Assembly: GCA_903934875.1 (NCBI GenBank)
Contig: CAIZPP010000151.1
Coordinates: 1-51,728 of the forward strand
DNA from: an uncultured Methylococcaceae bacterium
GTDB taxonomy: Bacteria > Pseudomonadota > Gammaproteobacteria > Methylococcales > Methylococcaceae
Length of the DNA: 51,728 nucleotides
Direction of reading: 5' to 3'
Shown: positions 20,845 to 39,789 of the stretch, piece after piece
Layout: each line of letters begins with the position of its first letter
How positions within the stretch are numbered: the first letter of the stretch is position 1
Notes under the pieces: generated by a model
Databases searched by the model: none
What the model was told of the DNA's origin: nothing
Seen by the model: only the letters and a program-made list of their open reading frames with translations
Translations under genes and position numbers: made by a program

Positions 20845-21085
20845 GTTATACACAACTCCAGCCAAGCCGAAAAAATGCCGATGGATGCCGAAATCCAGGC
20901 CATGGACGGTAACCAGTCGGTTGCGCAAGCGCTCATTCATGTCACTTTCCAGCATGTGGAAAGTGTCCTTTGATACAGGGGCAGATGTCGTTGCTCCGAT
21001 TTTGCCATCCTTGCACGCTGGATTTCGGCATCCCTGCCGAAATTACGGGTCTTATACACTTGTGTATAACTGCGAGAGCAAGACC
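20845..21085. repeat. Paired GGATTTCGGCATCCnTGCCGAAAT extragenic repeats
   Basis: Inverted units ATGGATGCCGAAATCCAG near 20882 and CTGGATTTCGGCATCCCTGC near 21019 are bounded by GTTATACACAA and ACACTTGTGTATAAC motifs. The pair resembles the repeats at 16195-16420 and 30105-30385. No gene is seen between the reductase start and exbD. Confidence 0.55.
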
Positions 21086-21493
21086 TCACTGTGCGATGGT
21101 CAGCACCGACAGTTTGGTGACACCGGCACGCTCAATGCCCGACATCACCTTGGCCACAATGCCATAATTCACCCCCTCGTCGGCATGTAGATGCAGGGCC
21201 AGTTCGGGGTCTGCGTTTTTGCGTGTCTTCAATTCAGACTCCAGCCCTTGCACACTGATTTCGAGCTTGTCGATGTACACCTTGCCTTGTGCATCGACGC
21301 TCACATCAACCGCCTTCTTTTCCTCCGGCGGGGCGGTCTGCGCCGTTTTGGGTAAGTTCACATGCACTGCGTTAGTCAACAGGGGCGCGGTGACGATGAA
21401 CACGATCAACAGCACCAACATCACATCGACCAGCGGGGTCACATTGATCTCGCTCATCACGCCATCATCATCGCTTTGCGTCTGGAAGGCCAT
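21086..21493 (-). CDS. exbD: ExbD/TolR-family biopolymer transport protein
   Basis: The 135-aa protein has the ExbD layout: short cytoplasmic N-terminus (MAFQTQSDDDGVMSEINVTP), one transmembrane helix with the conserved proton-carrying Asp (LVDVMLVLLIVFIVTAPLLT), then a periplasmic domain ending in GIERAGVTKLSVLTI. With ExbB it converts proton-motive force into movement of TonB. Its start overlaps the exbB stop by one base (TAATG), and it is the last gene of tonB-exbB-exbD. Confidence 0.9.
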   Translation of the reverse strand: MAFQTQSDDDGVMSEINVTPLVDVMLVLLIVFIVTAPLLTNAVHVNLPKTAQTAPPEEKKAVDVSVDAQGKVYIDKLEISVQGLESELKTRKNADPELALHLHADEGVNYGIVAKVMSGIERAGVTKLSVLTIAQ

Positions 21494-22263
21494 TAGGCGT
21501 GCGCCCCCTTCGCATGGGCAGGGTCACGGTGGAGTTCCGCAACGGGGTTTTTGCCCTGCTGCGGGGAGGGGGCGACCCCCGGATCATCCACATAGCGCAC
21601 AGCGGGGCGTTTGATGATGAAGGATGTCTTTAAGGCAAGATGGACGAAATCCGTGGCGAAGTCGTCAAGGAAAGCCCAGATGACTTTGTTGCGGCGCACG
21701 AAAAAATTGTAGGCAATTACGGCGGGCACGGCGACCGCGATGCCGAGGGCGGTCGCAACGAGGGCTTCGCCGATGGGCCCCGCTACCACGTCGAGGCTGG
21801 CCGAGCCGCTTTTACTGATGTCCTGCAAGGCATGCATGATGCCCCACACCGTGCCGAACAGGCCGACGAAAGGCGCGGTGCTGCCGATGGTGGCCAGCAC
21901 GGACAGCCCGCTTTCCAAGGCCCCGCGCTCTTTTTGCATCTGCTGGCGCAGGCGGCGGTCAAGCAGTTCCTGGCGGTCGCCGGTATGCTCCAAATCGTGG
22001 ATCGTCGTGCCTCCGTCTGCGTCGCGCAAGGTGCCGAATCCGATGGATGCCACCCGTGCCGCAGGGCCAGAATACCCCGACAACTCCGAGGCGGCTTTGA
22101 TATCCGTGGCGCGCCAGAAAACTTTATTGAATTTATGGTTGTAGTGCGCCACCCGCAAGTGCTGGATGCCCTTGATAAGGATCAAGCCCCAAGTGATGAC
22201 GGAAAACGCACCCAATGTCCAAAGGGTGCCATCGACGATGGCGGCGGTGGATAAGCTCGGCAT
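21493..22263 (-). CDS. exbB: ExbB/TolQ/MotA-family proton channel protein
   Basis: The 256-aa protein has an N-terminal helix (GTLWTLGAFSVITWGLILIK), a long cytoplasmic loop, and two C-terminal membrane helices with the family motif GLFGTVWGIMHALQDISKSG and IGEALVATALGIAVAVPAVI. It energises TonB together with ExbD. Gene order tonB-exbB-exbD with overlap confirms the role. A C-terminal tail of about 45 residues extends beyond the last helix. Confidence 0.9.
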   Translation of the reverse strand: MPSLSTAAIVDGTLWTLGAFSVITWGLILIKGIQHLRVAHYNHKFNKVFWRATDIKAASELSGYSGPAARVASIGFGTLRDADGGTTIHDLEHTGDRQELLDRRLRQQMQKERGALESGLSVLATIGSTAPFVGLFGTVWGIMHALQDISKSGSASLDVVAGPIGEALVATALGIAVAVPAVIAYNFFVRRNKVIWAFLDDFATDFVHLALKTSFIIKRPAVRYVDDPGVAPSPQQGKNPVAELHRDPAHAKGAHA

Positions 22264-22316
22264 GATATAACCTCAGTTCATTCGATTGGAAAATAGTGGA
22301 AACCGCAAACCTGCCA

Positions 22317-23228
22317 TCAACCTGGCAGATTGAAATTAATTGGGACCGACACCCAACCGTCGGTCGGCGTGTCTCCGCGCATGGCCGGGACGAAGTGCCA
22401 AGAACCCTTGACCTTGCGGATGGCGGCTTGATCCAACACTTCGTGCCCGCTGGAGTTTTGCACGGATACGCTGTCTGGCCTGCCATTGGCTAACACATGT
22501 ACTTTCAATATCACCCGGCCTTCCCATCCTTCCTCTATCGCTATTTCCGGGTAATCCGGTGCCGGGTTGTGCAAATACCCTGCGCTTGCGCTGGGACCAG
22601 TGACCTTTTCCGCAACCGGAGCGGGCCGGGGTGCCGGTGGTGCCGCTTTGACAGGAGCAGGCGTTGGCTCTTCCTCCTCCTCTTCAGGCTCTGGAGGTGT
22701 TTCCTCTTGGATGGGTTCCACCCGCCTGACCACCGGCTTGGGTGGCGGTTTGGGCTTGGCAACTTGTGGTTTGATCGCCACGACTTCCTTCTTGACCGGT
22801 TTGGGCGGCTCCACTTTTTTGGGTTCAGGTTTCTTGACCTCCACTTTCTTCGGCTCTGGCGGTGGAGGGGGCGGGGGCGGCTGCACAATGGGCTTGGGCG
22901 GCGGCGGGGGTATCAGCGTCACCTGCACCATAGGCGGAACCTTGACCGGGGTGACGGGCGGTTCATTTCTGGCCCCGTCATGAAAGCGCTGCACGATATA
23001 AAAATGAACCAATAGGGTTAACAGGCCGATCAGCAAATAATCCAGCCAGCCCCGCTCGCCTGTCTTCTCTTCCGACCTGAAACCGGCCAAGCTGAAATCG
23101 GCATCGCTGACCGGCAGCACCGACCTTCCTGTTTTGTAGAGGACAAACTTCATTGGAATGATGCGGGCAGATTTCTTCGCTACCGGGGACTGCCCTTCAG
23201 ATTGTAGAGCCGTTAAAGGTTTGTTCAT
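22317..23228 (-). CDS. tonB: TonB energy-transducing protein
   Basis: The 303-aa protein has one membrane helix near residues 62-82 (LDYLLIGLLTLLVHFYIVQR), a long Pro/Lys/Glu-rich periplasmic spacer (about 90-205, with PPPPPPPEPKKVEVKKPEP), and a C-terminal TonB domain (PDYPEIAIEEGWEGRVILKV, SSGHEVLDQAAIRKVKGSWH). The cytoplasmic N-terminal extension of about 60 residues is longer than in classical TonB. It links the ExbB/ExbD motor to outer-membrane receptors; no TonB-dependent receptor gene is in the window, so the cargo is unknown. Regulation by Fur could not be seen. Confidence 0.9.
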   Translation of the reverse strand: MNKPLTALQSEGQSPVAKKSARIIPMKFVLYKTGRSVLPVSDADFSLAGFRSEEKTGERGWLDYLLIGLLTLLVHFYIVQRFHDGARNEPPVTPVKVPPMVQVTLIPPPPPKPIVQPPPPPPPPEPKKVEVKKPEPKKVEPPKPVKKEVVAIKPQVAKPKPPPKPVVRRVEPIQEETPPEPEEEEEEPTPAPVKAAPPAPRPAPVAEKVTGPSASAGYLHNPAPDYPEIAIEEGWEGRVILKVHVLANGRPDSVSVQNSSGHEVLDQAAIRKVKGSWHFVPAMRGDTPTDGWVSVPINFNLPG

Positions 23229-24420: not shown

Positions 24421-27400
24421 ATGATTGATGCTAACGAAATACAAGTTCTGCTTGAGAAACTTAAAGCGCAAGTCGAAACCACAAATGAAGCCGAAACTGC
24501 TAGGCAGTGGATTGAGCTTATTGAAAATCGTCAAAGTTTTTTAGACCTAAAAAATCACTCTATAACTTTGATTGGTACTGTGGGGATTGGCAAATCGTCT
24601 TTACTCGCTGCCGCAAGTAATCTTTTTATCGATCCAGAACCCAAAGACAAAACTGCACTGAAAGCCAATTCAGTTTTGCCAATAGGTGCAGGTCGGACAA
24701 GCCTATGTGAAACCTGTATTCGCAGTAAACAAAAGGACGATCAAAGCGAACTAGGGTTACTCATTGATCCAGTGCCTACAGATGAAATAGAAAGGGAAAT
24801 TAGAGGTTTTGCCGAGGACGAATGGCAGAAACGCCAACCAAATGGTAAAAAAGGTGATGCTGACCCAGTTGCGCAAGAAATCCGCCGGTTTATTCGAGCT
24901 ATGACGGGGTATTCCATGACCCAAGAAAGCTATATTGATGGTGACAAACAAAAAAAACGATTAGTTGATCCATTAAATAAAATTATTCCGAACTACCACA
25001 CCTATGAAACGTTTGCTACTCATCTCCTTGAGTGTGCCCAATTGTCACAGCGAAGCACCACACAAATTTGGTTGGGTACTGACAAGAGAGAGAATAGGGA
25101 AACGTTAAAAGCACGTTTAGAAGACGTAAACCAAGGCAAGGATATGCAAACGCCACTCCCCAACCGTATAACTTTGGTAGTGCCTAGCTTGTTGGGACAG
25201 ACTGGCGAGCATTTCGATCTAAGCTTAGTCGATACACGCGGGTTAGAAGTTGGTGGATATATTGAGGCTAGGGAGGATTTACAATCCTGCTTGCGTGATT
25301 CCCGTTCATTAATTGTCTTATGTTCAAGTTTTAATGACGCGCCAAGTGAACCTATTATATCTGTTCTTCGATCTATGTCTGCCGATATGGAATTGCGGCA
25401 GGCTATGTCTAGGGTTTTACTGATATTGATGGATCATGGGAACGCCGATCAAGTCAATGGTGCAGACGGTGACCGTGAATATGGGCAGGAGTTAAAAATA
25501 CACGAGTGCATGATAGCACTGAAAGATGTGGGTATTTCGAGTATTAAAGAATCTCAAATCATCGCCTTTGACGTGTTGCAAGATGAGCAGGATCGGCTTT
25601 TGCAAATCCTTACGGATTCAGTAACGGCACTGCGCAAACAAGTTGAAGTTCAACTCGACGAGTATATTAAAAACGCTAGACAATTTTTAATTAATATCAA
25701 TGCTGCGCAAAGACCGGAACTGATCCAAGCTGTTAATGACAGGATTAAAGAGGTTATGGCTGAGCATTTGCCCACTGGATTTCCACTAGATGACCCTTTA
25801 GAAGGCTTATATCAAGCTATTCGTGCGGAACGATCACGGCCTTCGGTTATCTACGCAACTTGTCGCCGTAACGGGATATATCAGCGGCGAGGAATAAATT
25901 TATACGAAGCGATAAGGAATAAGGCTAGACAAGCAGCGACTTTATGGTTGGATAACTTAAAAAAAGAGGTAGATTCTGAGTTAGAAGAACTTGAAAGCCA
26001 ACCAGACTTTTGGGTAGTCAATGACCATATTGATTCATTTAAATGGGAGTTTATAAAGAGTCAAATTAGAGTCATTTCTGATTATTCATCAAATGTGTAC
26101 TCAGAAGTGCAGCATTATTTGAAGTCTGACTTCTTAGAGCAACAAAGCCAGCATATATGGGATAGCTGCTGGCAAGAATGGGGCCAAGGTGCTGGTTTTG
26201 TTGACAAAGTGATTGAGCATTTTGAAAATTGGTCAGAACAGCATCAGCATGTGATTACCTCCCATGAAGAAACAAATGCCGAAGAACATATCCCATTTTG
26301 GCGCGAAGCCGCCAAGCCAAGACAGGCTCCGAGATTTACACTGCATGTACGAAATCTTCGTGCATTAAGGCAAGCCAAATGGACACCAGAACCCGTTTCC
26401 GTTTTGATCGGAGCTAATGGAGCAGGTAAGACCACTTTACTTAAAGTCTTAAAGCTTTTGCAAAGAGCTTATGAGCAAGATTTGTCAACGGCAGTTAACA
26501 ATGTATTGGGAGGCGGTTATCATCTTCGTTCATGGGGAAGTGCAGAAGACGAGCCTATAGAGGCGGGTTTGGACTTCGACAACATCCGTTGGCGTATTCA
26601 GCTTTACTCTCAAGCTGGTTCTGTAAGTACTGTCACTGCTGAAAATCTATTAGAGGGCGAGAGGAAGGTGTTTTCGCGTGACAGTCTCGGAGTGCTTGTT
26701 TATGGAAATGAACAAATTGATTCGGATAAATTAACTGGACTACGCACGTTGATGAATCGCGGTAGTCATGATTATGCAATAAGGACAATCGCTAAGTTGC
26801 TGCAAAACATTGCTGTATATGATGATTTTGATTTGCCAAGCTTGCGTGAGAATGGTTCTAATGCCTTTGATGACCAAGTATTAAATTCGCGAGGGACAAA
26901 TGTATTGGCAGTATTGCGACGCTGGCGTGTTGAGCGCGATAATCAACACCGGTATGATTTTGTCATTGAAGGCTTACAAGCTGCATTTCCTTATGCGTTT
27001 AAGTCTTTGGATTTCGTAACGGCAGGTAATACTCTACAAGCCAATATCTATGTGCCTAATCGGGAATCGCCTAGTCCGTTGGCATTCGAAGCGAATGGCT
27101 TTTTGCAATTACTTATTTTGTTCTGCGCCGTGGCCAGCGCAGAAGAAGAAAGCGTGGTGGCGATTGATGAACCCGAATGTGGGTTACATCCTTATGCCTT
27201 GCGCGTTTTTTTGCGCCGGGTTAGCCGATGGGCCAAAATGCTTGATGCAACGATATTGCTGGCAACGCATTCATTGGTGCTATTGGATGAATTAACCGAA
27301 CATCCGGAGCAAGTCTTCGTGATACAGCCCTCCGATAAACCCATGCCTATCAGGCTGGATCATTATTGCAATCTCGAATGGTTGCAAGATTTCAAATTAG

Positions 27401-27456
27401 GTGAATTATATGAGGACGGCGAAATTGGCAGTAACAAGGACGAAATACGCCTATGA
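24421..27456 (+). CDS. Two-P-loop protein: GTPase-like N-domain fused to ABC/OLD-type ATPase
   Basis: The 1011-aa protein carries two nucleotide-binding units. The first has LIGTVGIGKSS (P-loop, residues 50-60), a Thr in GRTS (91-94) and SLVDTRGLEVGG (DxxG-type switch, 268-279), suggesting a dynamin- or septin-like GTPase. A helical middle follows (about 380-640). The second has VLIGANGAGKTTLLKVLKLL (Walker A, G664-T671), a degenerate signature before VVAIDEPECGLHP (Walker B, 912-917) and LLATHSLVLLDEL (switch His950), as in AAA_21/OLD/RecF-type ATPases. The stop overlaps the start of a TOPRIM-like gene by 4 bp. DNA is AT-rich compared with flanks. The pair resembles ATPase-nuclease defence modules (PARIS, AbiL, OLD), but the GTPase fusion is unfamiliar to me. 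Function is inferred. Confidence 0.7.
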   Translation: MIDANEIQVLLEKLKAQVETTNEAETARQWIELIENRQSFLDLKNHSITLIGTVGIGKSSLLAAASNLFIDPEPKDKTALKANSVLPIGAGRTSLCETCIRSKQKDDQSELGLLIDPVPTDEIEREIRGFAEDEWQKRQPNGKKGDADPVAQEIRRFIRAMTGYSMTQESYIDGDKQKKRLVDPLNKIIPNYHTYETFATHLLECAQLSQRSTTQIWLGTDKRENRETLKARLEDVNQGKDMQTPLPNRITLVVPSLLGQTGEHFDLSLVDTRGLEVGGYIEAREDLQSCLRDSRSLIVLCSSFNDAPSEPIISVLRSMSADMELRQAMSRVLLILMDHGNADQVNGADGDREYGQELKIHECMIALKDVGISSIKESQIIAFDVLQDEQDRLLQILTDSVTALRKQVEVQLDEYIKNARQFLININAAQRPELIQAVNDRIKEVMAEHLPTGFPLDDPLEGLYQAIRAERSRPSVIYATCRRNGIYQRRGINLYEAIRNKARQAATLWLDNLKKEVDSELEELESQPDFWVVNDHIDSFKWEFIKSQIRVISDYSSNVYSEVQHYLKSDFLEQQSQHIWDSCWQEWGQGAGFVDKVIEHFENWSEQHQHVITSHEETNAEEHIPFWREAAKPRQAPRFTLHVRNLRALRQAKWTPEPVSVLIGANGAGKTTLLKVLKLLQRAYEQDLSTAVNNVLGGGYHLRSWGSAEDEPIEAGLDFDNIRWRIQLYSQAGSVSTVTAENLLEGERKVFSRDSLGVLVYGNEQIDSDKLTGLRTLMNRGSHDYAIRTIAKLLQNIAVYDDFDLPSLRENGSNAFDDQVLNSRGTNVLAVLRRWRVERDNQHRYDFVIEGLQAAFPYAFKSLDFVTAGNTLQANIYVPNRESPSPLAFEANGFLQLLILFCAVASAEEESVVAIDEPECGLHPYALRVFLRRVSRWAKMLDATILLATHSLVLLDELTEHPEQVFVIQPSDKPMPIRLDHYCNLEWLQDFKLGELYEDGEIGSNKDEIRL

Positions 27457-28328
27457 CCGCACGAATTAGACTTATCGTCACCGGAGACACTGAAGAGCTT
27501 GCATTGCATGATTCATTGAGGCGATTTTTCCCAACCCATAGATCGAATGGTGAAGTCGTTGAATGGGATGTGCCGCGTTTTCACAGAGGAGGCGCAACGA
27601 GTAATAGGCTAGATTATGCTGCGCAACCGAATGGTGCCATGAAAAAACTTGCGCGAATAATGTTAAATGAAGCAATCATCGGAAAACATGGTAAACCAGC
27701 CGACTTTGTTATCTTGGTTGACGATGTTGAGTTGGCTAATGTTGGGCAAGAAACCGTGGTTTCACATCATTTTCGACAAGCTTTGGAACAGGAGCTAAGT
27801 AAAACGAATTACTCAGGCCATAACTTAATCAACTGCAAAAATATTCTCCGCAGCAATTGTTCTTTTCATCTACTTAAACCGATGGTCGAGGCATATTTTT
27901 TCGGAGGTGATGTTAATGTGCTGCATATTGCAGGTGTGCCTATTCACATCAAACCAAAGCTCGACAAAACTGATGTGGAGATGTTTGAGGTTATCGATAC
28001 AAAGTATATTGAAAAATGCGAAAAGCAACTAGAAAAGCCTTGGTGGCGTGAGGAGTGCCACCCTAAGAAATACCTAGATTATTTAATTAAACAAGACAAA
28101 CCTTGCAGACGGGCTTATGAAGAAACTAAACATGGTAAAGAAGCATTGTTGGCACTTGACTGGCCTAAAGTGCCAACACAGACAACAGAAACTCCCGTCG
28201 TTCGTTCGTTATTTGCCGATATTGCAGATTGGTTTGGAATCCCCAACCCTCTTCCCGGTGATATCCACTCTGGTTTCTATCCTAGTACTAACGTACCTCA
28301 TCATACACTCTTATTAAGAAATTTGTAA
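27453..28328 (+). CDS. TOPRIM/DUF4276-like protein, partner of the two-P-loop ATPase
   Basis: The 291-aa protein shows a DUF4276/RloB-like TOPRIM layout: IRLIVTGDTEELALHDSL (acidic Glu14/Glu15 after the first strand), DFVILVDDVELAN (acidic cluster, Asp90, Asp91, Glu93), FHLLKPMVEAYFFGG (Glu146, the usual E-A-[WY]-L/F motif) and HPKKYLDYLI followed by YEETKHGKEALLALDW. These positions normally bind Mg2+ in nuclease or primase TOPRIM folds. It overlaps the ATPase gene by 4 bp (ATGA) and shares its AT-rich composition: line 27661-27720 has 23 G+C of 60. By analogy it would be the nuclease effector controlled by the ATPase. DUF4276 assignment is from motif memory. Confidence 0.65.
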   Translation: MTARIRLIVTGDTEELALHDSLRRFFPTHRSNGEVVEWDVPRFHRGGATSNRLDYAAQPNGAMKKLARIMLNEAIIGKHGKPADFVILVDDVELANVGQETVVSHHFRQALEQELSKTNYSGHNLINCKNILRSNCSFHLLKPMVEAYFFGGDVNVLHIAGVPIHIKPKLDKTDVEMFEVIDTKYIEKCEKQLEKPWWREECHPKKYLDYLIKQDKPCRRAYEETKHGKEALLALDWPKVPTQTTETPVVRSLFADIADWFGIPNPLPGDIHSGFYPSTNVPHHTLLLRNL

Positions 28329-30391: not shown

Positions 30392-31738
30392 TTAAGCCGC
30401 CTTCGCCACCTTGTCCTGCAAATGTTGGTTGGCCGGACGTTTCAAGCCCAAATTCTCGCGCAGGGTCTTGCCCTCGTATTCGGTGCGGAAGATGCCGCGT
30501 TTTTGCAGTTCAGGCACGACTAGATTGATGAAATCTTCCAATGAATCAGGCAGGAAAGTGGGTTTCAGGTTGAAGCCATCCGCCGCGCCGTTGACAAACC
30601 AGTCTTCAATCTGGTCGGCAATGTCAGCCGGTGTGCCCACGACGATGCGATGGCCTTGGACGATGCTGAAACGCAGGATCAGTTCGCGGATGCTGAGGTT
30701 TTCCCGGCGGGCGAGGGCGACGGCCTGCCGCCACCGGCCTATGCCGTTGGACGGCTCTGGCAGGTTTTCCGGCAACGGGCCATCCAGTGGGTGTTCGGAC
30801 AGGTCGATGCCAAACAGATTGCGCCTGCCGGACAGGTCGTAAGATTCGCGATAAGACTGGTATTTTTCCTCAGCTTCCTGGCGCGAGGAACCGATGTGGT
30901 AAAACAGGCCGGGGATGACGCGGACATCGTCCGATTCGCGCCCATATTTGGCAGCGCGATCCTTCACATCCTTGTAATAGGCTTGCGCCTCTTCGATGGT
31001 TTGCGCGGCGGCGTAGATCAACTCCGCATGTTGCGCCGCGAATTCGCGGCCGGTGTCGGAGTTGCCGGCTTGGAAAAACACCGGATAGCCCTGAATCGGC
31101 CGGGCGATGTCGAGCAGGGTGTCCACACTAAAATGCTTGCCGTGGTGGTGGATCGGGTGGACGCTGCTGGAATCAAGGAATTGGCCGGTTTCTTTGTTGG
31201 GGTGGTCGAAGGCACCGTCGTCCCAGGTGTCCCACAACAGCTTGGACACTTCGATGAATTCCGCCGCCCGCTCGTAGCGCCCGGAATGGTCCAAGGGTTT
31301 GTCCACCCCGAAGCTTTTTGCCGCGCCTTCGGACAGGGACGAGACGATGTTCCAGCCGATGCGTCCGCCGGTCAAATGGTCCAGCGAGGCAAAGCGGCGG
31401 GCGACGTTGTAAGGTTCGTTGAAATTGGTGTTCACTGTCGCCACCAGTCCGATGTGCCGGGTGACGTGCGCCAGTGCCGCCGTCAAGGTCAAGGGTTCAA
31501 AGCCGCCGCCGCGTGGATGCCGGCCAATCCGCTCAATGTCATCGCCGCCGTTGCCGACGAAATCGGCAAAGAAGGCGATATCGAACTTGCCCCGTTCCAG
31601 CAACTTCACAGTATCCGCCCACTGGTTAAAGTCGGGGTTGCCGCCGGCCTGCGTTTCGGCCCGCCGCCAGGCATTGGCATGGGTGCCGTAGAGTTGCACA
31701 AACGTCGATAAAATCAGTTGCCGTGTTTTCTTGCTCAT
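30392..31738 (-). CDS. NtaA/SnaA/DszA-family FMN-dependent monooxygenase (copy 2)
   Basis: The 448-aa protein is a second member of the luciferase-like NtaA/DszA branch: SKKTRQLILSTFVQLYGTHA, FDIAFFADFVGNGGDD, LDHLTGGRIGWNIVSSLSEG, YPVFFQAGNSDTGREFAAQH and SLEDFINLVVPELQKRG. It resembles copy 1 at 6842 but clearly differs, so it probably has another substrate range. The ATG at 31738 has an excellent GGAGG and is preferred to one 12 bp upstream. It is the last gene of a minus-strand cluster with three DszB-like desulfinases, but two MITE insertions lie in the 321-bp gap before it and may have reduced coupling. It needs reduced FMN, presumably from the MsuE-like reductase at 20229. Confidence 0.85.
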   Translation of the reverse strand: MSKKTRQLILSTFVQLYGTHANAWRRAETQAGGNPDFNQWADTVKLLERGKFDIAFFADFVGNGGDDIERIGRHPRGGGFEPLTLTAALAHVTRHIGLVATVNTNFNEPYNVARRFASLDHLTGGRIGWNIVSSLSEGAAKSFGVDKPLDHSGRYERAAEFIEVSKLLWDTWDDGAFDHPNKETGQFLDSSSVHPIHHHGKHFSVDTLLDIARPIQGYPVFFQAGNSDTGREFAAQHAELIYAAAQTIEEAQAYYKDVKDRAAKYGRESDDVRVIPGLFYHIGSSRQEAEEKYQSYRESYDLSGRRNLFGIDLSEHPLDGPLPENLPEPSNGIGRWRQAVALARRENLSIRELILRFSIVQGHRIVVGTPADIADQIEDWFVNGAADGFNLKPTFLPDSLEDFINLVVPELQKRGIFRTEYEGKTLRENLGLKRPANQHLQDKVAKAA

Positions 31739-31793
31739 GTTTTCCTCCAACCGGACTCAGGTTTTGGGCATTGCTGCCAACCTCAAACGTTTC

Positions 31794-31816
31794 GGTCGGG
31801 GTTACAAACCCCGACC
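31794..31816. repeat. Perfect hairpin in the leader of monooxygenase copy 2
   Basis: GGTCGGGGTT and AACCCCGACC form a 10-bp perfect stem with an ACA loop, about 55 bp upstream of the ATG at 31738. It may act as an attenuator or be a dispersed extragenic palindrome. Confidence 0.5.
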
Positions 31817-31828
31817 GGCTTTTAATAA

Positions 31829-32059: not shown

Positions 32060-33157
32060 TTAAGCCGCTTTGAGGTAGCCTTCCAAACGCCTGCGGGCTT
32101 CCTCCAACGGACGGTGGTCAATCCAAGCATCGAAATCGAAATCTCGGTCAAGGATGCCGTAGGTCAGTTGGAAGTTCTTCTGCTGGCGGAAAAGCTCCAC
32201 GCGTTCGCTGGACAAATCCGGTGCCAGAGTCAGGTGGAAGCCGTCGCGGTAGGCCGCCTGCAAACCTTCGCGGCTGGCACCGATTTCCTTGTGCAACAGG
32301 TCATACACGCTGTTCAAATTGGTCTTGGCCCACTCGGCGGCATGTAACGTCTGGTACAGGAAGCGCACCAGCAGGTCGAAGTGGTTTTCAAGGAAATCTT
32401 CATGCACGGTGATCGGGCGGGGTGTGCCGTTGTTGACGCGGAAGCGGCGCTCGGGCAGCTTGTCCAAGTCGATGCCGACCACCAAACCGCGCTGACGCGC
32501 CCCGTCGGCGGCGGAAGCGCCTTTCACATAAAGGCCATCCACCTCGCCCTTCAGCAAAGGCTCCAGCCCTTCCCAGAATCCACCCAGATTTGCGCCATTG
32601 CCGTCGCGGTCGGCTTGGGCGTGGCCGTCGCCGACTTCCACCAAATGCACATCGTCCAAGGTCAGCCCGACCGAGTTCAACGCGCCTTTGTAGCCATGCA
32701 AGCTGCCATAACGTGCAATGCTGCGGCCACGGCGGTTCTCGGCTATATCAATGGCTTTGATGGACGGCAAGGCCAAGCGCTTGCCCTTCAAATCCTTAGG
32801 GGAGCGGATATCGGAATCCGGGCGCACGATGATGGACTGGCCCTCGTCGATCCAGGTTAGGCCGATCAACCGGGTCTTCGCGCCTTGCGCCTTGGCCGGA
32901 ATCGCAAACAGGTTGCCGCCTTCGCGGATCAGGTTGGTCAGTTGGTGGTCGTAGTGGTTGTGGCGCTGGTCTTCGTTGCCGGTTTCTTGCAGGGTGCGCA
33001 GGGTGATGCCGTCTGGCTTGAACTCATTGTCCAGCCAGCCGAGTTGATAGGCCAAGCCTGTGGCCGTGGGCACGCCGCCCCTGCCATTGCCTGCGCAACG
33101 GGTAAACCAAATGGTGTCGATGTCGGTGGTGCTTGCATTGTCAGTTTGAACGGTCAT
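32060..33157 (-). CDS. DszB-like sulfinate desulfinase with insertion at the catalytic Cys loop
   Basis: The 365-aa protein is a close tandem paralogue of the next gene upstream (33286); both end DFDFDAWIDHRPLEEARRRL. It has no signal peptide. The active-site pattern of DszB is kept: Cys21, His68 in HYDH, Arg78 and Gly81 in REGGN. However, the usual CPVP loop reads CAGNGRGGVP, a net six-residue Gly-rich insertion immediately after the Cys. This may change access to the nucleophile or inactivate it. AAGGAAACATC precedes the ATG. It is the third desulfinase-like gene of the cluster, followed by monooxygenase copy 2. It would typically be misannotated as an ABC substrate-binding protein. Confidence 0.75.
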   Translation of the reverse strand: MTVQTDNASTTDIDTIWFTRCAGNGRGGVPTATGLAYQLGWLDNEFKPDGITLRTLQETGNEDQRHNHYDHQLTNLIREGGNLFAIPAKAQGAKTRLIGLTWIDEGQSIIVRPDSDIRSPKDLKGKRLALPSIKAIDIAENRRGRSIARYGSLHGYKGALNSVGLTLDDVHLVEVGDGHAQADRDGNGANLGGFWEGLEPLLKGEVDGLYVKGASAADGARQRGLVVGIDLDKLPERRFRVNNGTPRPITVHEDFLENHFDLLVRFLYQTLHAAEWAKTNLNSVYDLLHKEIGASREGLQAAYRDGFHLTLAPDLSSERVELFRQQKNFQLTYGILDRDFDFDAWIDHRPLEEARRRLEGYLKAA

Positions 33158-33186
33158 GATGTTTCCTTGATGGTTGATAATTCGTT

Positions 33187-33270
33187 TGCTCGTTCCCAGC
33201 TTTTGCTTGGGAATGGGGGTTTGAAGCTCCAGCTTCCCGAAAAACGGCCAAGTAGGAGCTTGGGAACCAG
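33187..33270. repeat. CTCGTTCCCAAGCT-type extragenic repeat
   Basis: Repeated inverted units of GTTCCCAGCTTTTGCTTGGG and GGAGCTTGGGAACC are packed in 84 bp between two desulfinase-like genes. Related GAGCTTGGGAAC and GTTCCCAAGCTGG words occur near 16395 and 30105. Confidence 0.5.
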
Positions 33271-33285
33271 CCAGACTTCTTTATC

Positions 33286-34341
33286 CTAAGCTGCCTTTGA
33301 GTAGCCTTCCAATCGCCTGCGGGCTTCCTCCAATGGACGATGGTCAATCCAAGCATCGAAATCGAAATCCCGGTCGAGGATGCCGTAGATCAATTGGAAG
33401 TTCTTCTGCTGGCGGAAAAGCTCCACGCGCTCACTAGTCAAATCCGGTGCCAGCGTCAGGTGGAAGCCGTCGCGGTAGGCCGCTGCCACGCCTGCACTGC
33501 TGGCGCGGGCTTCGCCCTGCAAAATTTCCTGCACACCGGCTAGGTTGGTCTTGGCCCATTCGGCGGCGCGCAGGGTTTGATAGAGAAAACGCACCAGTAA
33601 GTCGAAGTGATTTTCGATCAAGTCCTCATGGACGGTAATGGGCCTAGGCGTACCGTTGTTGACGCGGAAGCGGCGCTCGGGCAGTTTGTCGATGTCGATG
33701 CCGACCACCGCCCCATGCTGGCGGGCCGCATCCACCGAAGACGCGCCTTTGACATAGATGGCATCCACTTCGCCGTTGATTAAAGGTTCCAAGCCACCCC
33801 ACAAGCTGCCAAGGTTTTCCCGTGAATTGCCCGCAGTTGGCCGCTCATTGCTGACCTCAATCAGATGCACATCGTCCAAAGTCAAACCGGCCGAGGCCAG
33901 CACGCCTTTGTAGCCGGCCAAACTCATGCCCCTGGCAATGCTGCGCCCGCGCCGGTTCTCCGCCAGATCGGCAGCGCGGTAGGCCGGCAGTGCCAAGCGC
34001 TTACCCTTTAGCTGCGCTGGGGAACGGATGGTCGAATCCGGGCGCACAAGAATAGCCTGCGCCTCGTCTATCCACGTCAAGCCCACCAGACGGGTCGGAG
34101 CACCTTGGGCCTTGGCCGGAATCGCCAACAGGTTGCCGCCCTCGCGGACTAGGGTGGCCAATTGGTGGTCGTAGTGATGGCGGGCCAGATCGCCACCCAC
34201 TTCTTGCAGTGTCTTGATGTGGATGCCATCAGGCTTGAACTCGGAGTCCAGCCAGCCCAGCTTGTAGGCCAAGCCAGTGGCAGTGGGAACCGGGCAGCGA
34301 GTGAACCAAATAGTGTCCACATTTTTAGCGGATGTGCTCAT
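33286..34341 (-). CDS. DszB-like sulfinate desulfinase
   Basis: The 351-aa protein keeps the full DszB-type site: Cys16 in WFTRCPVPTATG, His56 in HYDH, Arg66 and Gly69 in REGGN, then the SBP-fold hallmarks VGLTWIDEAQAILVRPDS, LKGKRLALP and GEVDAIYVKGAS. It lacks a signal peptide. It is close to 32060 over its whole length (shared GTPRPITVHED, DGFHLTLAPDL), showing a tandem duplication. Its stop lies 128 bp before that gene. It starts 18 bp after the stop of 34360-35439, so both are surely co-transcribed. Expected reaction: sulfinate to hydrocarbon or alcohol plus sulfite. Confidence 0.8.
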   Translation of the reverse strand: MSTSAKNVDTIWFTRCPVPTATGLAYKLGWLDSEFKPDGIHIKTLQEVGGDLARHHYDHQLATLVREGGNLLAIPAKAQGAPTRLVGLTWIDEAQAILVRPDSTIRSPAQLKGKRLALPAYRAADLAENRRGRSIARGMSLAGYKGVLASAGLTLDDVHLIEVSNERPTAGNSRENLGSLWGGLEPLINGEVDAIYVKGASSVDAARQHGAVVGIDIDKLPERRFRVNNGTPRPITVHEDLIENHFDLLVRFLYQTLRAAEWAKTNLAGVQEILQGEARASSAGVAAAYRDGFHLTLAPDLTSERVELFRQQKNFQLIYGILDRDFDFDAWIDHRPLEEARRRLEGYSKAA

Positions 34342-34359
34342 TGTGATGCCTTATGATTG

Positions 34360-35439
34360 TCAGGCTGCCAAGGCAGCGGGAAATTCGACCAAAGCCGGTT
34401 CGCGTGCAACGAGCTTGATTGCCTCGGCCAAAGGCTCGGTGACAATCCAGTCGGAAAATTCGAAATCGGCATGCAAATAGCCCCAGTCGCGCAGGAAGTT
34501 TTTCTGCGCTTCCAGTCCTTTGATGTATTCCGGGCTGAGCTTGGGCAAAAAGGAGCGATGCACATCGCGACCATGCGATGCCCACACGTCTTCAAGGCTG
34601 AAGCCGCCGTTTTCAGGAACAAGCAACTCGGCGCTTTCTTTAGGATGCTGTTCGGCCCATGCGGCGGTGCGCAACAAAACGGCCAGGTAGCGCACAACCA
34701 AATCTGGATGTTTTTCCAAAAATGGTCGATCCACGGTGACGGGGCGGGGTGTGCCGTTGCCAACGCGGAGCAAGGGGTCGGGCAAGGTATTGATATTGAT
34801 GACTTCGTGGAAACGCGGGTCTTGCGACGTGCGGTAGCCTCGTGCGAAGCGCAGGAAAATCGCATCCACCTTGCCCTCCAGCAACGCATCGACTTCAAAG
34901 CTGCGCGTCCAGTCGGCCTGCCCCCGTCTTTCGCCTGGAGGGATTTCCACATCCACGAAAATAGCCTCTTTGGGATCAAACCCGGCCAACCCAAAGGCCG
35001 TCACAAAGCCGTGCTGTGCGGCACCGCGCTGGAAGTCAATCAGGTTCTTGTGCAGCGGTAGCCCCAGGCGCTTGCCTTCTAAGTCTTTAACTTGGCGTAT
35101 GCCGCTGTCGGCCAGGGTCAAAATGCCTTGATACTCGTCCAGCCAGGTTATGCCGATGACAGCAGTGTCTTGGCCTTGTGCTTTGGCCCATATCGGCGGG
35201 ATATTTCCACCCTCGCGAAATAGACCTGTGAGTTTGTGGTGGTAATGCGAATTGAGAATGTCCTGGTCATTGGATTCCCGCAACGAATGGAGAACCGTTC
35301 CACCTTGCGAAAACTCCGCTTGCAACCAGTTTTTCTGGATGGCAAGCGCCGATGCCGTGGCCGCGCCACAGCGGGTATACCAAAGATCAATAAGCTCGTT
35401 TTGCGCCGGGCCGATTTTGCTGCTGTGTTGATGTGTCAT
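34360..35439 (-). CDS. DszB-like sulfinate desulfinase, first gene of the cluster
   Basis: The 359-aa protein carries Cys24 (LWYTRCGAATASALA), His65 (SHYHHKL), Arg75 and Gly78 (REGGNIPPIWAK), matching the DszB site, though the CPVP loop is CGAA here. It is nearer to the solitary copy at 240 (shared SLRESND and GGNIP followed by IWA) than to its neighbours. No signal peptide is present. It heads a minus-strand cluster of three desulfinase-like genes and one DszA-type monooxygenase. A sigma54-type promoter lies about 45 bp upstream of its ATG. A ribosome site GGAAACCC precedes the ATG. Confidence 0.78.
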   Translation of the reverse strand: MTHQHSSKIGPAQNELIDLWYTRCGAATASALAIQKNWLQAEFSQGGTVLHSLRESNDQDILNSHYHHKLTGLFREGGNIPPIWAKAQGQDTAVIGITWLDEYQGILTLADSGIRQVKDLEGKRLGLPLHKNLIDFQRGAAQHGFVTAFGLAGFDPKEAIFVDVEIPPGERRGQADWTRSFEVDALLEGKVDAIFLRFARGYRTSQDPRFHEVININTLPDPLLRVGNGTPRPVTVDRPFLEKHPDLVVRYLAVLLRTAAWAEQHPKESAELLVPENGGFSLEDVWASHGRDVHRSFLPKLSPEYIKGLEAQKNFLRDWGYLHADFEFSDWIVTEPLAEAIKLVAREPALVEFPAALAA

Positions 35440-35484: not shown

Positions 35485-35500
35485 AGCATTGTCTGTGCCA
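35485..35500 (-). promoter_or_regulatory. Candidate sigma54 (-24/-12) promoter of the desulfinase cluster
   Basis: On the minus strand TGGCACAGACAATGCT matches the sigma54 consensus TGGCACG-N4-TTGCA/T at all positions except two, with the invariant GG and GC correctly spaced. Transcription would start near 35473, about 35 nt ahead of the ATG at 35439. Confidence 0.6.
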
Positions 35501-36029: not shown

Positions 36030-36155
36030 ATGCAATTTCAACCCAAAAAACTTCCCATCCCAGCCGACCTCATCGATGCCGACTCTGCGGCAGAACCCAA
36101 GAGGGCCAAAGCCTTGGGCATTGCTGTCAGTCCTAGGCTGAGACACCCCATATGA
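36030..36155 (+). CDS. Candidate 41-aa leader ORF overlapping the ABC exporter start
   Basis: An ATG at 36030 opens a frame MQFQPKKLPIPADLIDADSA, then KRAKALGIAVSPRLRHPI, ending in TGA at 36153-36155. The TGA overlaps the exporter's ATG (ATGA), the same coupling seen in other operons here. No family is recognised. It could be a translational coupling leader or a small co-expressed peptide; it could also be chance. Confidence 0.3.
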   Translation: MQFQPKKLPIPADLIDADSAAEPKRAKALGIAVSPRLRHPI

Positions 36156-37933
36156 ACAATACCCATCCTTTACTGCGTTGCCTGGCCATCTACCGGGAAA
36201 TGCCGAAACGCTTTTTCTTGACCGTGTTCCTTTTTACCCTGGTCAATCTGAGCCTGTCCGGCCAGCAATGGCTGATAGGCCGCGCTGTGCATGATGTGGA
36301 GCGCGGCGTGGCGGTGGTGAAGCTGGCGGATGGAAGCCTTGATATGACAGTCGCCTGGCATTGGCTGGCAATCCTAGCAGGCGTGGCATTGGCCCGTGGC
36401 GTGGTGCAATACGCCGCCGGTCTATTGGCATTGATTATCGGGCAGGAACTGCTCTCCATCCTGCGCGAGCGCATCCTCGCGCAAGTGCAACGCCTGGACC
36501 TTGGCTTCCATTGGCAGCATGGGGTGGGCGAGATGGTGACCCGAACGACTAGGGATGCCGACAAAGTCCGCGACGCATTGGTTAGCTTCTGGCGGCAGGT
36601 GTTTGACACCGGTTTGGTGATTGTCGCCTCCATCGGTTTGCTGTGCTGGTATAACCTACAACTGGGCCTAGTGCCGCTGGCCTTGATGCTGCTGGGCATT
36701 TACATTTTTGTGGCGCAAACGGAACGGCTGGTGACATTGGACCGATCGGTGGGCGCCGCTTACGACAGGGTCAACCAAGACTTGTCTGAAGGCATCAACG
36801 GGGTGCGCGTCATCAAGGCTTTTGCCATCGAGCCGGCGCGCATCGACCGGTTCAGCGAACAGGTGGATATTTTTGCCGAACAGGCCCGCTTGGCCTTGGC
36901 TTATTCCGCTTCCCGCATTCCTTTTCCCCAACTGGTCGTCTCCCTAGGGCATGTCTGGGTTTTAGTCTATGGGGCGGAATTGGTCGCCGAGGGCAAGATC
37001 AACTTGGGCGAATTGGTGGCATCATTATTAGTGGCGACGACTTTGGTTTTCCGCGTCGAGGGCATAGGCCGGGTGATGCAGACTTTCGCCGATGCCCGTT
37101 CTTCGGCGGGGCGGATATGGGAGTTGCTTGATGCGCAGCCGGCTTTCGTCACTGGGCAACGGCCCTTGCCCAAGGAACCTTTGGGCTTGAAGCTCACCGA
37201 TGTCAGCGTGGCGACCCCCGGCGGCGGTAGCCACATCCTGCAGGGCTGCTCTTTAACCATCCAGCCGGGCGAAGTGGTGGCCCTAGTGGGTGTCACGGGT
37301 TCAGGTAAAAGCACTCTTGCCAGCCTGTTCGCCCGCTTGCTGGATGTGGATGAAGGGATGCTGGCGATAGGCTCGGACAAGACCGGCTGGCGCGACGTGC
37401 GTAGGGTCAACTTAAGCGAATTGCGCAAACGCGTCCATGTCGCCCCGCAGGAGAGCTTTTTGTTCTCGGACAGCTTGGCGGCCAATTTGCGGCTGGCAAA
37501 GCCCGATGCCAGCGACGGGGAGCTTCGCGAAGCCTTGCGTCTTGCCGCTGCGGAGGAAGTCTTGGAAGGCTTGCCGCACGGGCTGGACACCCGCTTCGGA
37601 GACCGTGGCGTCACCTTGTCTGGTGGCCAGCGGCAACGGGTCAGCCTGGCTCGCGCCTTATTGGGCAAGCCCGACATCCTCATCTTGGACGATGCCACCA
37701 GCGCCCTTGATGCGGTGACCGAGCGGAGCATCTTAAACAACATCCGCAGCTTGAAGCGGGCCGACGGGCACGGCACAACGCTCATCATCATCGCCAGTAA
37801 ACTCTCCACCATTTTACTGGCCGACCATGTGTTGATGCTGGCCAATGGCCGCATCGCCGCCGCAGGCACCCATGAAGCCTTGGCGGCCAAAAACGCAGAA
37901 TACCGCGATTTATTAGGTTTGGATAATGTTTAA
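36152..37933 (+). CDS. Heterodimeric ABC exporter, subunit with degenerate ATPase site
   Basis: The 593-aa protein fuses a six-helix exporter domain (about 20-310; FLTVFLFTLVNLSLSGQQW) to a nucleotide-binding domain: Walker A VGVTGSGKST, signature LSGGQRQRVSLARALL and Walker B ILILDDATSALD. The catalytic Glu after Walker B is Asp, and the switch His is replaced by Ser (IIASKLSTI instead of IIAHRLSTI), so its own hydrolysis site is degenerate. The next gene starts 2 bp downstream and supplies a complete Walker B. The pair forms a heterodimer of the BmrCD/TM287-288 type, likely exporting drugs or lipids. It may be translationally coupled to a 41-codon ORF upstream. Confidence 0.85.
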   Translation: MNNTHPLLRCLAIYREMPKRFFLTVFLFTLVNLSLSGQQWLIGRAVHDVERGVAVVKLADGSLDMTVAWHWLAILAGVALARGVVQYAAGLLALIIGQELLSILRERILAQVQRLDLGFHWQHGVGEMVTRTTRDADKVRDALVSFWRQVFDTGLVIVASIGLLCWYNLQLGLVPLALMLLGIYIFVAQTERLVTLDRSVGAAYDRVNQDLSEGINGVRVIKAFAIEPARIDRFSEQVDIFAEQARLALAYSASRIPFPQLVVSLGHVWVLVYGAELVAEGKINLGELVASLLVATTLVFRVEGIGRVMQTFADARSSAGRIWELLDAQPAFVTGQRPLPKEPLGLKLTDVSVATPGGGSHILQGCSLTIQPGEVVALVGVTGSGKSTLASLFARLLDVDEGMLAIGSDKTGWRDVRRVNLSELRKRVHVAPQESFLFSDSLAANLRLAKPDASDGELREALRLAAAEEVLEGLPHGLDTRFGDRGVTLSGGQRQRVSLARALLGKPDILILDDATSALDAVTERSILNNIRSLKRADGHGTTLIIIASKLSTILLADHVLMLANGRIAAAGTHEALAAKNAEYRDLLGLDNV

Positions 37934-37935
37934 AA

Positions 37936-39789
37936 ATGGCTGAAAATCTACGCACTAAAGTCCTCAGTGACATTGAGATGGAGGAGGTCTTCGCCAAGAA
38001 GTCCCTCAACCGCAGCATGTTCTCGCGCCTAGTCCCGCTGCTTAAGCCAGTGCGCCGGCGGGTGGTCGCGGTGATCGGCATTGAACTCTTGCTAGTGGCA
38101 GCGATTTTTTTGCGCCCCTTGCTGATCCGCCAATTGATCGACCGTGGCTTGGTTCGCGAGGGGGTTGGCTGGAGCGTGGACTACGGCTATGTGCAGTGGC
38201 TGGCGCTGGCGATGGCCTTGACTTGGGCGGTGCGGTTCCTGTTGGCGGGGCTGTCGCAATATTTGGCTGGGTCCGCAGCCATCCGCATCCTCAACGCCTT
38301 GCGTGTGCGCGTGTTTACCCATGTGCAAAGCTTAAGCGTGCGTTATTTTGACCGCACCAAGGCGGGCCGCATCATCTCCCGCGCCGACCGCGACGTGGAC
38401 AGTTTGGAGGCCCTGCTCATTCAAGGCCCGCCGGAATTGTTGTCGGCCCTGTTGCGCAGCGTGGTGTCCGGCATCCTGATGTGGCGGATTTCCCCCCTGC
38501 TATTCTTGAGCCTGGCCAGCGTCGTGCCCTTTTTGTTGGCAGGCACCTGGGCTTTTAAACGCATCTCCCAGCGCAATTGGGCCATCGTAGCCGAGAACCG
38601 CAGCCGTTTCACTGCGCATCTGGTCGAAACCGTGTCCGGTGTGCGTCTGCTGCAACAAACCGTGCAGGAGGAACCTAACCGGATTCGCTACCGGGGACTG
38701 GTAAACGAGTTCAACTGGTCTTTAGTGCGGGGTAATGCACGTTCGGGCTGGTTCACCCCGTTCACCGGCCTGCTCACCACGCTAGGCATGGCCTTGCTGC
38801 TGCTGGTTGGCGCCCGCGGCATCGCACTGGGTGAGATTAGCTTCGGCCAGATGACTGAGAGCCTGTTCTACGTATTTTTGTTTTTGGGTCCGTTGCAGGA
38901 ATTAAACGACTTGTTCGAACGCTACGCCACCGGGGCCGCTTCGGCACAGCGCATTTTCCTGCTGCTCGACACCGAGGCGGAAATTGTCGACAGGGACGAT
39001 GCCATCCACCTGCCTTCCGTGCGCGGCGAGGTTTCTTTCCAAAAGGTCCGCTTCGCTTACGACCCCAATGCGGCCAAGCCGGTTATCCGCGATTTGGATT
39101 TGCATGTGCCTGCCGGCCAAGTGCTGGCCATTGTCGGACCCACCGGCCACGGCAAGAGCACGCTGGTGCAATTGTTGACACGGTTCTATGAGACCCATCA
39201 TGGCTCGGTCAGCATCGACGGTTTGGATGTGCGCAAGTTTGCCCAGCGCAATCTGCGCCGCCATGTCGGCGTGGTATTGCAGGACAATGTCTTGTTTAGC
39301 GGCAGCATCTTGGATAATTTACGCTTGGCCGCAGCGGGGTCCAGTGATGAAGAACTGATAGCCGCAGCGCGTGAATTGGGCGCGGATGAGGTTCTCGAGC
39401 GCCTGCCCCACAACTACAAAACGGAAGTCGGCCCGCTAGGTGCGCACCTGAGCCACGGGCAAAGGCAGTTGGTGTGCCTGGTCCGGGCCTATCTCGCCGA
39501 CCCAGGCATCTTGGTGTTGGACGAGGCCACCTCGGCAGTCGATATCCATACCGAACGCCGCATCCAAAAAGCCTTGCGCCGGCTCTGCCAAGGCCGCACG
39601 GCCATCATCATTGCCCACCGCCTAGCCACCATCCGTGACGCAGATCGGATCGCCGTGATTAAGCACGGTGCCTTGGTGGAAATCGGCCACCACCGGACGC
39701 TCATCAACGCGGGCGGAGATTATGCCAAACTCTACCGCGCCTATGAAGAAAGCCTGTTCGGCGATTATGCCTTGGCGAAGGCAAGCTAA
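37936..39789 (+). CDS. Heterodimeric ABC exporter, subunit with canonical ATPase site
   Basis: The 617-aa protein has the same exporter fold: membrane domain about residues 45-340, nucleotide-binding domain with Walker A VGPTGHGKST, Walker B ILVLDEATSAVD (catalytic Glu present) and switch His in IIIAHRLATI. Its signature is LSHGQRQLVCLVRAYL, deviating from LSGGQ. In a heterodimer this motif completes the degenerate site of the partner, so the asymmetry fits both subunits. It starts 2 bp after the partner's stop and is clearly in the same operon. A MITE follows directly downstream. Confidence 0.85.
   Translation: MAENLRTKVLSDIEMEEVFAKKSLNRSMFSRLVPLLKPVRRRVVAVIGIELLLVAAIFLRPLLIRQLIDRGLVREGVGWSVDYGYVQWLALAMALTWAVRFLLAGLSQYLAGSAAIRILNALRVRVFTHVQSLSVRYFDRTKAGRIISRADRDVDSLEALLIQGPPELLSALLRSVVSGILMWRISPLLFLSLASVVPFLLAGTWAFKRISQRNWAIVAENRSRFTAHLVETVSGVRLLQQTVQEEPNRIRYRGLVNEFNWSLVRGNARSGWFTPFTGLLTTLGMALLLLVGARGIALGEISFGQMTESLFYVFLFLGPLQELNDLFERYATGAASAQRIFLLLDTEAEIVDRDDAIHLPSVRGEVSFQKVRFAYDPNAAKPVIRDLDLHVPAGQVLAIVGPTGHGKSTLVQLLTRFYETHHGSVSIDGLDVRKFAQRNLRRHVGVVLQDNVLFSGSILDNLRLAAAGSSDEELIAAARELGADEVLERLPHNYKTEVGPLGAHLSHGQRQLVCLVRAYLADPGILVLDEATSAVDIHTERRIQKALRRLCQGRTAIIIAHRLATIRDADRIAVIKHGALVEIGHHRTLINAGGDYAKLYRAYEESLFGDYALAKAS

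Follow-up and report, generated by a model that had tools for sequence, protein, structure and literature searches.

Putative DszB-type desulfinases, of a family often annotated as substrate-binding proteins, in a sulfur gene cluster of an uncultured Methylococcaceae bacterium

Are proteins whose relatives are annotated 'ABC transporter substrate-binding protein' always binding proteins, or do some of them release sulfite from organic sulfur compounds? The question is raised by a 51,728-nucleotide stretch of DNA (hereafter the window) from contig CAIZPP010000151.1 in the 5.41 Mb genome (GCA_903934875.1) of an uncultured Methylococcaceae bacterium, in which three adjacent genes (P0001, P0002 and P0003) and an isolated copy (P0004) had been taken, in an earlier note on this DNA, for relatives of the desulfinase DszB posing as substrate-binding proteins. 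DszB has been described as catalysing the slow step of fuel biodesulfurization, a desulfination without cofactor (PMC6100217). Here we argue that the window is best read as carrying putative DszB-type desulfinases in a sulfur-starvation cluster, together with monooxygenases, an aldolase, a pair of exporter-fold ATP-binding cassette (ABC) half-transporters and a sigma-54 activator. We consider it probable that three of the proteins, P0001, P0002 and P0004, belong to the DszB superfamily as cofactor-free cytosolic desulfinases that feed sulfite assimilation and are supplied by a monooxygenase; of P0003 we are less sure. The case is built from homology, residue conservation, sulfur-poor composition, synteny and a promoter-like element in part of the relatives.

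All four genes are intact open reading frames (ORFs; Table 1), and in each the start codon is the earliest available behind a stop, so that a longer reading is ruled out. A pattern check recovered Cys, His, Arg and Gly at the DszB spacing in the three tandem proteins, at the residue numbers first given for them and likewise for the isolated copy, with x-G-G after the motif Arg in each of the four. The description of 'three tandem' copies stands as far as adjacency goes, but not as a set of equals: P0001 and P0002 are a duplicated pair (76–77% identity) whereas P0003 is 35–38% identical to either, so that the array consists of one recent pair and one old paralogue. P0003 as a mere third copy of that pair was rejected, as it falls in an old, separate clade in the tree. 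Both P0003 and P0004 are 35–41% identical to the other copies. A fifth DszB-like gene (the C328 copy) lies on another contig of this genome, near two ORFs read as luciferase-family monooxygenases. Among the loci fetched, the closest named one comes from a metagenome-assembled genome, Candidatus Methylumidiphilus alinenensis, with a P0001 homologue of 97% identity.

Several comparisons place the four proteins with DszB. It was the first sequence match in the Protein Data Bank (PDB) for every one of them (P0001, 8.2e-08; P0002, 1.3e-10; P0003, 3.3e-07; P0004, 6.9e-11), and a profile of 53 family sequences matched DszB at 5.4e-35 over positions 10–340, nearly full length, versus 7.7e-05 over only 54 positions for the best SsuA (E. 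coli). Structure models (AlphaFold2) were made for P0002 and P0003, with predicted local distance difference test scores (pLDDT) of 91.5 and 90.9; their first fold match in the PDB was again DszB (E 7.9e-20 and template modelling (TM) score 0.74 for P0002; 4.2e-17 and 0.71 for P0003), SsuA coming next (5.9e-15 and 5.1e-14, respectively). In a 66-row tree, from which one unrelated protein chosen by position (L117 4774–5820) had been taken out beforehand, DszB grouped with 58 family rows and was split from six binding proteins with support of 100/98, although the tree tool warned of long branches and DszB sits on one of 1.92. The profile, fold and tree results thus identify P0001–P0004 as relatives of DszB, not close orthologues, and three of the comparisons proposed in the earlier note (profile search, fold of predicted structures and phylogeny) fell on the DszB side.

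These same data bear on the simplest alternative, namely that the annotation is right and the proteins are ordinary ABC-importer binding proteins of the SsuA/NMT1 family. The relatives do carry that annotation, as had been claimed, and the window proteins pass the Pfam NMT1 cut-off (31–36 bits against 20.5), but with the SsuA family model TIGR01728 they reach 54.1, 54.5, 64.0 and 84.7 bits, far under its cut-off of 163.5, and no importer permease family (SsuBC-type neighbours) was matched among the window ORFs scanned. Nor is there a signal peptide. The most hydrophobic 12-residue stretch in the first 50 amino acids scores 0.56–1.2 in P0001–P0004, does not exceed 1.56 in 144 relatives (a set without rows truncated at locus ends or lacking a start codon near the expected place), and scores 1.3 and 1.8 in two DszB proteins; among six binding-protein comparators four score 2.0–3.2 and two 0.53 and 0.85, the latter probably mis-started. 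The absence of signal peptides noted earlier is thus upheld by this hydrophobicity scan, which fits a cytosolic location. With DszB placed first by profile, with no signal peptide and with TIGR01728 so far from its cut-off, we rejected ordinary SsuA-type binding proteins, a reading that we regard as highly improbable; the comparisons support DszB homologues rather than periplasmic binding proteins.

If these proteins are enzymes, the residues of the DszB active site should be conserved beyond the window. Family rows were defined by at least 35% identity and at least 180 aligned residues, and in the resulting 157 rows (window included) the positions, in DszB numbering, are kept as follows: Ser/Thr25 in 154, Cys27 in 138, His60 in 145, Arg70 in 156 and Gly73 in 156, with Cys, His, Arg and Gly together in 133. 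The four window proteins have all five, the sole Cys of each aligning with Cys27, whereas Cys, His or Arg at those positions was found in none of nine comparators, weakly similar proteins (<35% identity) taken as binding proteins. Because one of the two scan patterns contained Cys, the 80 anchor rows (Cys27 in 80/80) are uninformative on conservation; the fair sample for Cys is the 73 non-anchor copies (72 neighbours and the C328 copy), in which Cys occurs in 54, Cys with His, Arg and Gly in 49, and Arg70 and Gly73 in 72. Another set, of 13 plasmid-borne relatives and the C328 copy, has Cys in 14/14 and His-x9-Arg in 13/14; its members were hand-picked from protein-search hits or beside them and are neither random nor fully independent, three coming from one Sphingobium plasmid and two from one Sinorhizobium plasmid, with the C328 copy shared with the set of 73.

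The composition of the proteins makes the retention of this Cys more telling. Each DszB-like protein of the window contains exactly one Cys and at most one internal Met, and for DszB itself a single Cys and no Met have been reported (PMC8557817). Across the 157 rows, 138 of 185 Cys residues stand in the Cys27 column (the next richest column has 4), and the residue there is the only Cys in 118 rows. Seven desulfurization-type proteins of the window together hold 8 Cys and Met in 2585 residues, against 143 in 5611 for seven others (Fisher p 2e-15), in a comparison of hand-chosen groups that leaves out GroEL, the sulfate-binding-type protein, transporters and regulators. Retention of a Cys where sulfur amino acids are otherwise so scarce makes a functional need for it likely, and we regard this as the strongest case for catalysis to be had from sequence alone.

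A number of observations weigh against desulfinase activity, or against its extension to every copy. DszB is distant (~20–24% identity, in addition to the long branch), and its Tyr63 and Gln65, mutation of which affects DszB activity (PMC6100217), are replaced in the window proteins by His and Leu; the predicted chemistry residues are thus kept while two pocket residues are changed. The Gly was present in 9/9 comparators and alone is not diagnostic. P0001 carries an insertion immediately behind the Cys, a loop 6 residues longer with a Gly-rich sequence (AGNGRGG or close) common to it and six relatives (7/157 rows); because of this insertion its pairwise PDB match to DszB begins past the Cys (query 29), and the Cys was placed in the Cys27 column by multiple alignment, not by the pairwise match. 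Cys27 is absent from 19 of the 73 non-anchor copies (Ser in 14, Arg in 3, Gly in 1, and 1 fragment), and the set of Cys, His, Arg and Gly is incomplete in 24; in a sphingomonad paralogue Asp replaces the motif His. The P0003 clade is half Cys-less, with Arg for Cys in three of six rows (Massilia/Pseudoduganella), and P0003 is the most doubtful of the four as an active enzyme. Some members in other lineages occur near peptide-type or Ssu-type importers, and there a link to transport is conceivable. Lastly, the 'DszA-type' monooxygenase of the original proposal (LLM_a) passes the NtaA/DmoA family model, but DszA (6e-80) is not the nearest of its solved relatives, as an NTA-monooxygenase-family protein (1.5e-92) and YtnJ (3e-92) both match it better.

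The Cys-less copies in particular invite the view that these are cytosolic ligand-binding or helper proteins, which would hold an organosulfur ligand and deliver it to the flavin monooxygenases, or sense it, without doing chemistry, Ser and Arg variants being ordinary members of the family. The near-universal Arg70 and Gly73 in a sample where Cys is often missing would fit, as would six Pseudomonas loci (L043, L045, L047, L049, L050 and L082) in which P0004-like genes form adjacent pairs of a Cys copy and a Ser copy; the Ser mutant of DszB is inactive (PMC6100217) and was nevertheless crystallised with ligand (title of 2DE3). A mere binder, on the other hand, needs no Cys, and these Cys- and Met-poor proteins keep one at a single column in 138/157 rows, 80 of which were fetched by a motif that can contain Cys. 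We think the helper role unlikely.

Gene neighbourhoods offer evidence of another kind. Among 85 loci we considered the 78 foreign ones, leaving out those of this genome (L001–L005) and of close relatives (L006, L007); each is ~17 kb or less, some overlap on one contig (e.g. L009 with L022), and neighbour counts were redone by tblastn because longest-ORF calling misses genes in G+C-rich loci. Two or three DszB-like copies per locus occur in 53/78. Of the window partners tested, the commonest is a homologue of the class II aldolase (66/78), which in 49 of those 66 loci lies within 300 bases of a P0001/P0002-like gene. The sigma-54 activator has homologues in 35 loci, and at ≥50% identity LLM_a was found in 11 and ExbB and ExbD in 10 each; LLM homologues (≥45%) lie within 300 bases of a P0004-like gene in 8/10. 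GroEL, sulfate permease and the sulfate-binding-type protein were found in 0/78. The family is one with conserved partners of its own, and its members are often annotated as binding proteins.

The aldolase is also a reason to weigh a different chemistry on the same fold, for example substitution of a carboxylate by a proton, or C–S cleavage on a compound other than a sulfinate, since plain desulfination needs no aldolase. The fold hosts other enzymes, Thi5 and MqnD appearing in the fold searches and 4,5-dihydroxyphthalate decarboxylase as a weak match of the family profile (0.033), and the loss of Tyr63 and Gln65 points the same way. We nonetheless judge such chemistry distinctly unlikely, because the four window proteins retain all five DszB active-site positions and the neighbours are of sulfur-scavenging types (an MsuE-like reductase, and monooxygenases either of the NtaA/DszA family or annotated as SsuD).

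The exporter-fold half-transporters exA and exB are frequent companions as well, although not universal partners: exA is found at ≥50% identity in 39/78 foreign loci and exB in 38/78, and where they occur together (36 loci) they are on the same strand in 35 and separated by no more than 49 bases between matches in 34. When the best three candidates of each genome were scored in a phylum sample of 398, the top exA matches listed for other genomes were 29–36% identical, and none of the six other P0004-matching genomes had a close one among the matches listed. The frequency of exA in foreign loci, set against its poor matches in the phylum, suggests a special ABC subfamily tied to DszB-like loci.

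Gene order in relatives brings the set together. It runs P0003-P0002-P0001-LLM_a-aldolase-LLM_b in G002 and P0002-P0001-LLM_a-aldolase-LLM_b in G011, in both with the ABC pair divergent upstream, and P0002-P0001-LLM_a with exA divergent in G006; the window has the same gene set, but with the aldolase and LLM_b ~22 kb off. Plasmids show a different arrangement. On those of Sinorhizobium/Ensifer, two DszB-like genes (both sequence-checked as such in Sinorhizobium only) flank a gene annotated as acyl-CoA-dehydrogenase family, with an NtaA/DmoA monooxygenase 3–4 kb on, which is a 4S-like set; on Agrobacterium and Paracoccus plasmids a gene for an acyl-CoA-dehydrogenase-type flavoprotein adjoins a DszB-like gene. 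Three plasmid flavoproteins that were scanned scored far under the SfnB and DszC cut-offs. No match to the DszC-like (acyl-CoA-dehydrogenase-type) family was found among the window ORFs scanned, a set that excludes the smallest and spurious-looking ORFs.

Table 1. Features of the window discussed in the text (positions are those of the whole window).
Feature	Position	Strand	Remarks
P0001, DszB-like, 365 aa	32060-33157	minus	intact ORF; Cys21/His68/Arg78
P0002, DszB-like, 351 aa	33286-34341	minus	intact ORF; Cys16/His56/Arg66
P0003, divergent DszB-like paralogue, 359 aa	34360-35439	minus	intact ORF; Cys24/His65/Arg75
P0004, DszB-like, 350 aa	240-1292	plus	intact ORF; Cys13/His54/Arg64
LLM_a (P0005), NtaA/DmoA-DszA family flavin mononucleotide (FMN)-dependent monooxygenase	30392-31750	minus	passes NtaA/DmoA family model
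LLM_b, second NtaA/DmoA-DszA family monooxygenase	6842-8251	plus	52% identical to LLM_a
Class II aldolase/adducin-fold protein	5942-6694	plus	
exA, ABC half-transporter, exporter fold	36152-37933	plus	
exB, ABC half-transporter, exporter fold	37936-39789	plus	
Sigma-54 interaction domain activator	18932-20065	plus	no further Pfam domain found
MsuE-like FMN reductase, candidate FMNH2 supplier	20229-20936	minus	191.7 bits, below curated cut-off 212.5
ExbD, ExbB and TonB genes	21086-23228	minus	
Sigma-54-like -24/-12 element	35485-35500	minus	TGGCAC-N5-ATGCT, one mismatch; 45 bases upstream of P0003
G+C-rich hairpin	31792-31818	plus	12 pairs; between P0001 and LLM_a
Solute-binding protein (SBP_bac_11)	4254-5279	minus	no Cys, no internal Met
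ORF beside GroES/GroEL genes	9120-9755	minus	no Pfam match
GroES (Cpn10)	10217-10516	plus	neither Cys nor Met
GroEL (Cpn60), 546 aa	10589-12229	plus	no Cys, one internal Met
TIR-domain protein	14413-15435	minus	between chaperonin genes and sulfur genes
Third exporter-type ABC half-transporter	16440-18524	minus	
Large ATPase (AAA_21/AAA_15) and partner ORF	24421-28328	plus	partner ORF without Pfam match

Turning to the partners within the window (Table 1), LLM_a more likely starts at an ATG four codons in (31738), from which it contains no Cys and no internal Met. Its co-expression with the DszB-like genes, part of the original proposal, remains our inference: 309 bases and a hairpin lie between P0001 and LLM_a in the window, against ~60–170 bases in three relatives. 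Such hairpins occur at chance number; this one may end or process the transcript. No solved relative of the class II aldolase was found by sequence. The third ABC half-transporter is 82% identical in G002 and G011, and in both, as in the window, it lies near MsuE and ExbB/ExbD. Amid the sulfur genes stands a large ATPase (overcoming-lysogenization-type by look) with its partner ORF, possibly a defence-type insert and absent from the 78 foreign loci.

Sulfur-poor composition extends to other genes of the window. The GroEL, whose tail is without Met, looks like a sulfur-sparing chaperonin, the chaperonin labels being confirmed by Pfam; in the second GroEL of this genome (C235; 76% identity) the aligned part contains 1 Cys and 18 Met. 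Among 30 GroEL rows from 17 genomes, five have no Cys and at most one Met in the aligned part, including that of the window and that of a more distant gammaproteobacterium (G309), in which ~14 kb separate the GroEL gene from a DszB-like one; a sulfur-poor GroEL is also present in G004 and G019, neither of which has a DszB-like match at 1e-20. Our literature search found nothing on a sulfur-sparing chaperonin. ORFs similar by eye to the one beside the sulfur-poor GroES/GroEL genes accompany that GroEL in G004, G019 and G011. The SBP_bac_11 protein, which we read as of sulfate-binding type, overlaps the start of the sulfate permease gene, itself confirmed by Pfam.

Regulation may tie the cluster to sulfur supply. 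In addition to the sigma-54-like element before P0003, a near-identical one, likewise with one mismatch, lies 44 bases upstream of P0002 in G006; before the first DszB-like gene the best element has two mismatches and is 222 bases away in G002, and has 5 mismatches in G011. G002 and G011 have elements with one or two mismatches before both P0004 and the aldolase gene, and the window has one before the aldolase gene; before P0004 the element in G006 has three mismatches. Before the P0004 copy of the window and several other cluster genes the sites have four or more mismatches or there are none. Over the window as a whole the pattern shows no enrichment (4 found versus 3.3 expected); its support comes from position, and scans for sigma-70 promoters and terminators were at chance level. 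The positioned elements, together with the activator encoded in the cluster, suggest a sulfate-starvation regulon under a sigma-54 activator.

From these data we infer the catalysis, order of steps, substrate class and regulation of a putative desulfination route. An organic sulfinate would be held by Arg and His in the cleft of the binding-protein fold, where the single Cys would replace the sulfinate group by a proton, or attack the sulfur, releasing sulfite for assimilation. Both possibilities mirror the two mechanisms proposed for DszB, in which Cys either protonates the sulfinate-bearing carbon (electrophilic aromatic substitution) or attacks sulfur (PMC6100217); should the protonation mechanism hold here, the substrate would be an aryl or other unsaturated sulfinate. 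Within the cluster, an FMNH2-dependent monooxygenase of the NtaA/DszA family may make this sulfinate from a sulfone, with FMNH2 provided by the MsuE-like reductase, and the gene set would probably be switched on under sulfate starvation by the sigma-54 activator. The exporter-fold ABC pair might import the source compound or export the desulfurized skeleton; some siderophore importers have an exporter-type ABC fold.

The family is patchy among methanotrophs. In a search of 61 genomes of relatives (own included), five had a match at 1e-20, of which four hold 4–5 copies and the fifth a single 28% match, and 7 of the 398 phylum genomes (own included) had a P0004 match at 1e-15; this patchy presence would be explained by horizontal gain or repeated loss. 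A scan of genome contigs gave at least 554 relatives, and 136 plasmid records had a match at 1e-5, 101 of them covering at least 80% of the query.

More tentatively, and with more doubt than confidence, we propose that the genes form a Proteobacterial organosulfur acquisition system not yet recognised. In it, DszB-type desulfinases would work with NtaA/DszA-family monooxygenases and a class II aldolase to gain sulfite from a naturally occurring sulfone or sulfonate of aryl or vinyl type. A heterodimeric ABC transporter of exporter fold would be dedicated to the system, perhaps importing behind a TonB receptor; control would lie with a sigma-54 sulfur activator, and the paralogues that lack Cys would be partners without catalytic function. 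The genes resemble those of sulfite-releasing enzymes despite their binding-protein label, and thus a group of sulfur-scavenging genes is probably misnamed. If the desulfinase reading is true, annotation would be corrected in Pseudomonas, Janthinobacterium, Massilia, Sphingobium, rhizobia and some methanotrophs, a large natural set with the DszB active site but another pocket would open new enzymes to testing, and there would be a lead to an organosulfur source in natural use. The Ser copies of Pseudomonas are the natural counterpart of the inactive DszB C27S mutant, and such Cys-to-Ser copies are ready tests of mechanism.

How does the family compare with systems already described? No description of it as desulfinases in Proteobacteria was found among the listed titles and abstract openings of a mostly open-access literature. 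Two proteins described earlier are actinobacterial, unlike the window family: BdsA of Gordonia terrae, annotated as desulfinase/DszB type, induced by organosulfur and placed among sulfonate-transport-type genes (PMC3868597), and a chromosomal 'SsuA/DszB' protein of Rhodococcus IGTS8 with a similar annotation, organosulfur up-regulation and sulfonate-transport-type neighbours (PMC8557817); both are likened here by description only. The SsuA and NMT1-THI5 binding proteins share the fold, a weak profile similarity and the label given to relatives, but differ in having a signal peptide and importer partners and in lacking the Cys/His/Arg set. In Pseudomonas, the SfnR-type sigma-54 sulfur regulon combines an activator with sigma-54-like elements before sulfur genes, as the window does, its activator being likened to SfnR by type and not by comparison with it. 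DszB itself, which acts on 2'-hydroxybiphenyl-2-sulfinate and is encoded in a dszA-dszB-dszC operon, is alike in fold, length, lack of signal peptide, the set of Cys27, His60, Arg70 and Gly73 with Ser/Thr25, the single Cys and near-absence of Met, and a cluster that includes a flavin monooxygenase belonging to the wider DszA family; it differs in overall sequence, in Tyr63 and Gln65, in the window family's own motifs W-[FY]-T-R-C and N-N-G-T-P-R, and in its DszC-type partner, for which no gene was recognised among the window ORFs scanned while some plasmid relatives have such a neighbour.

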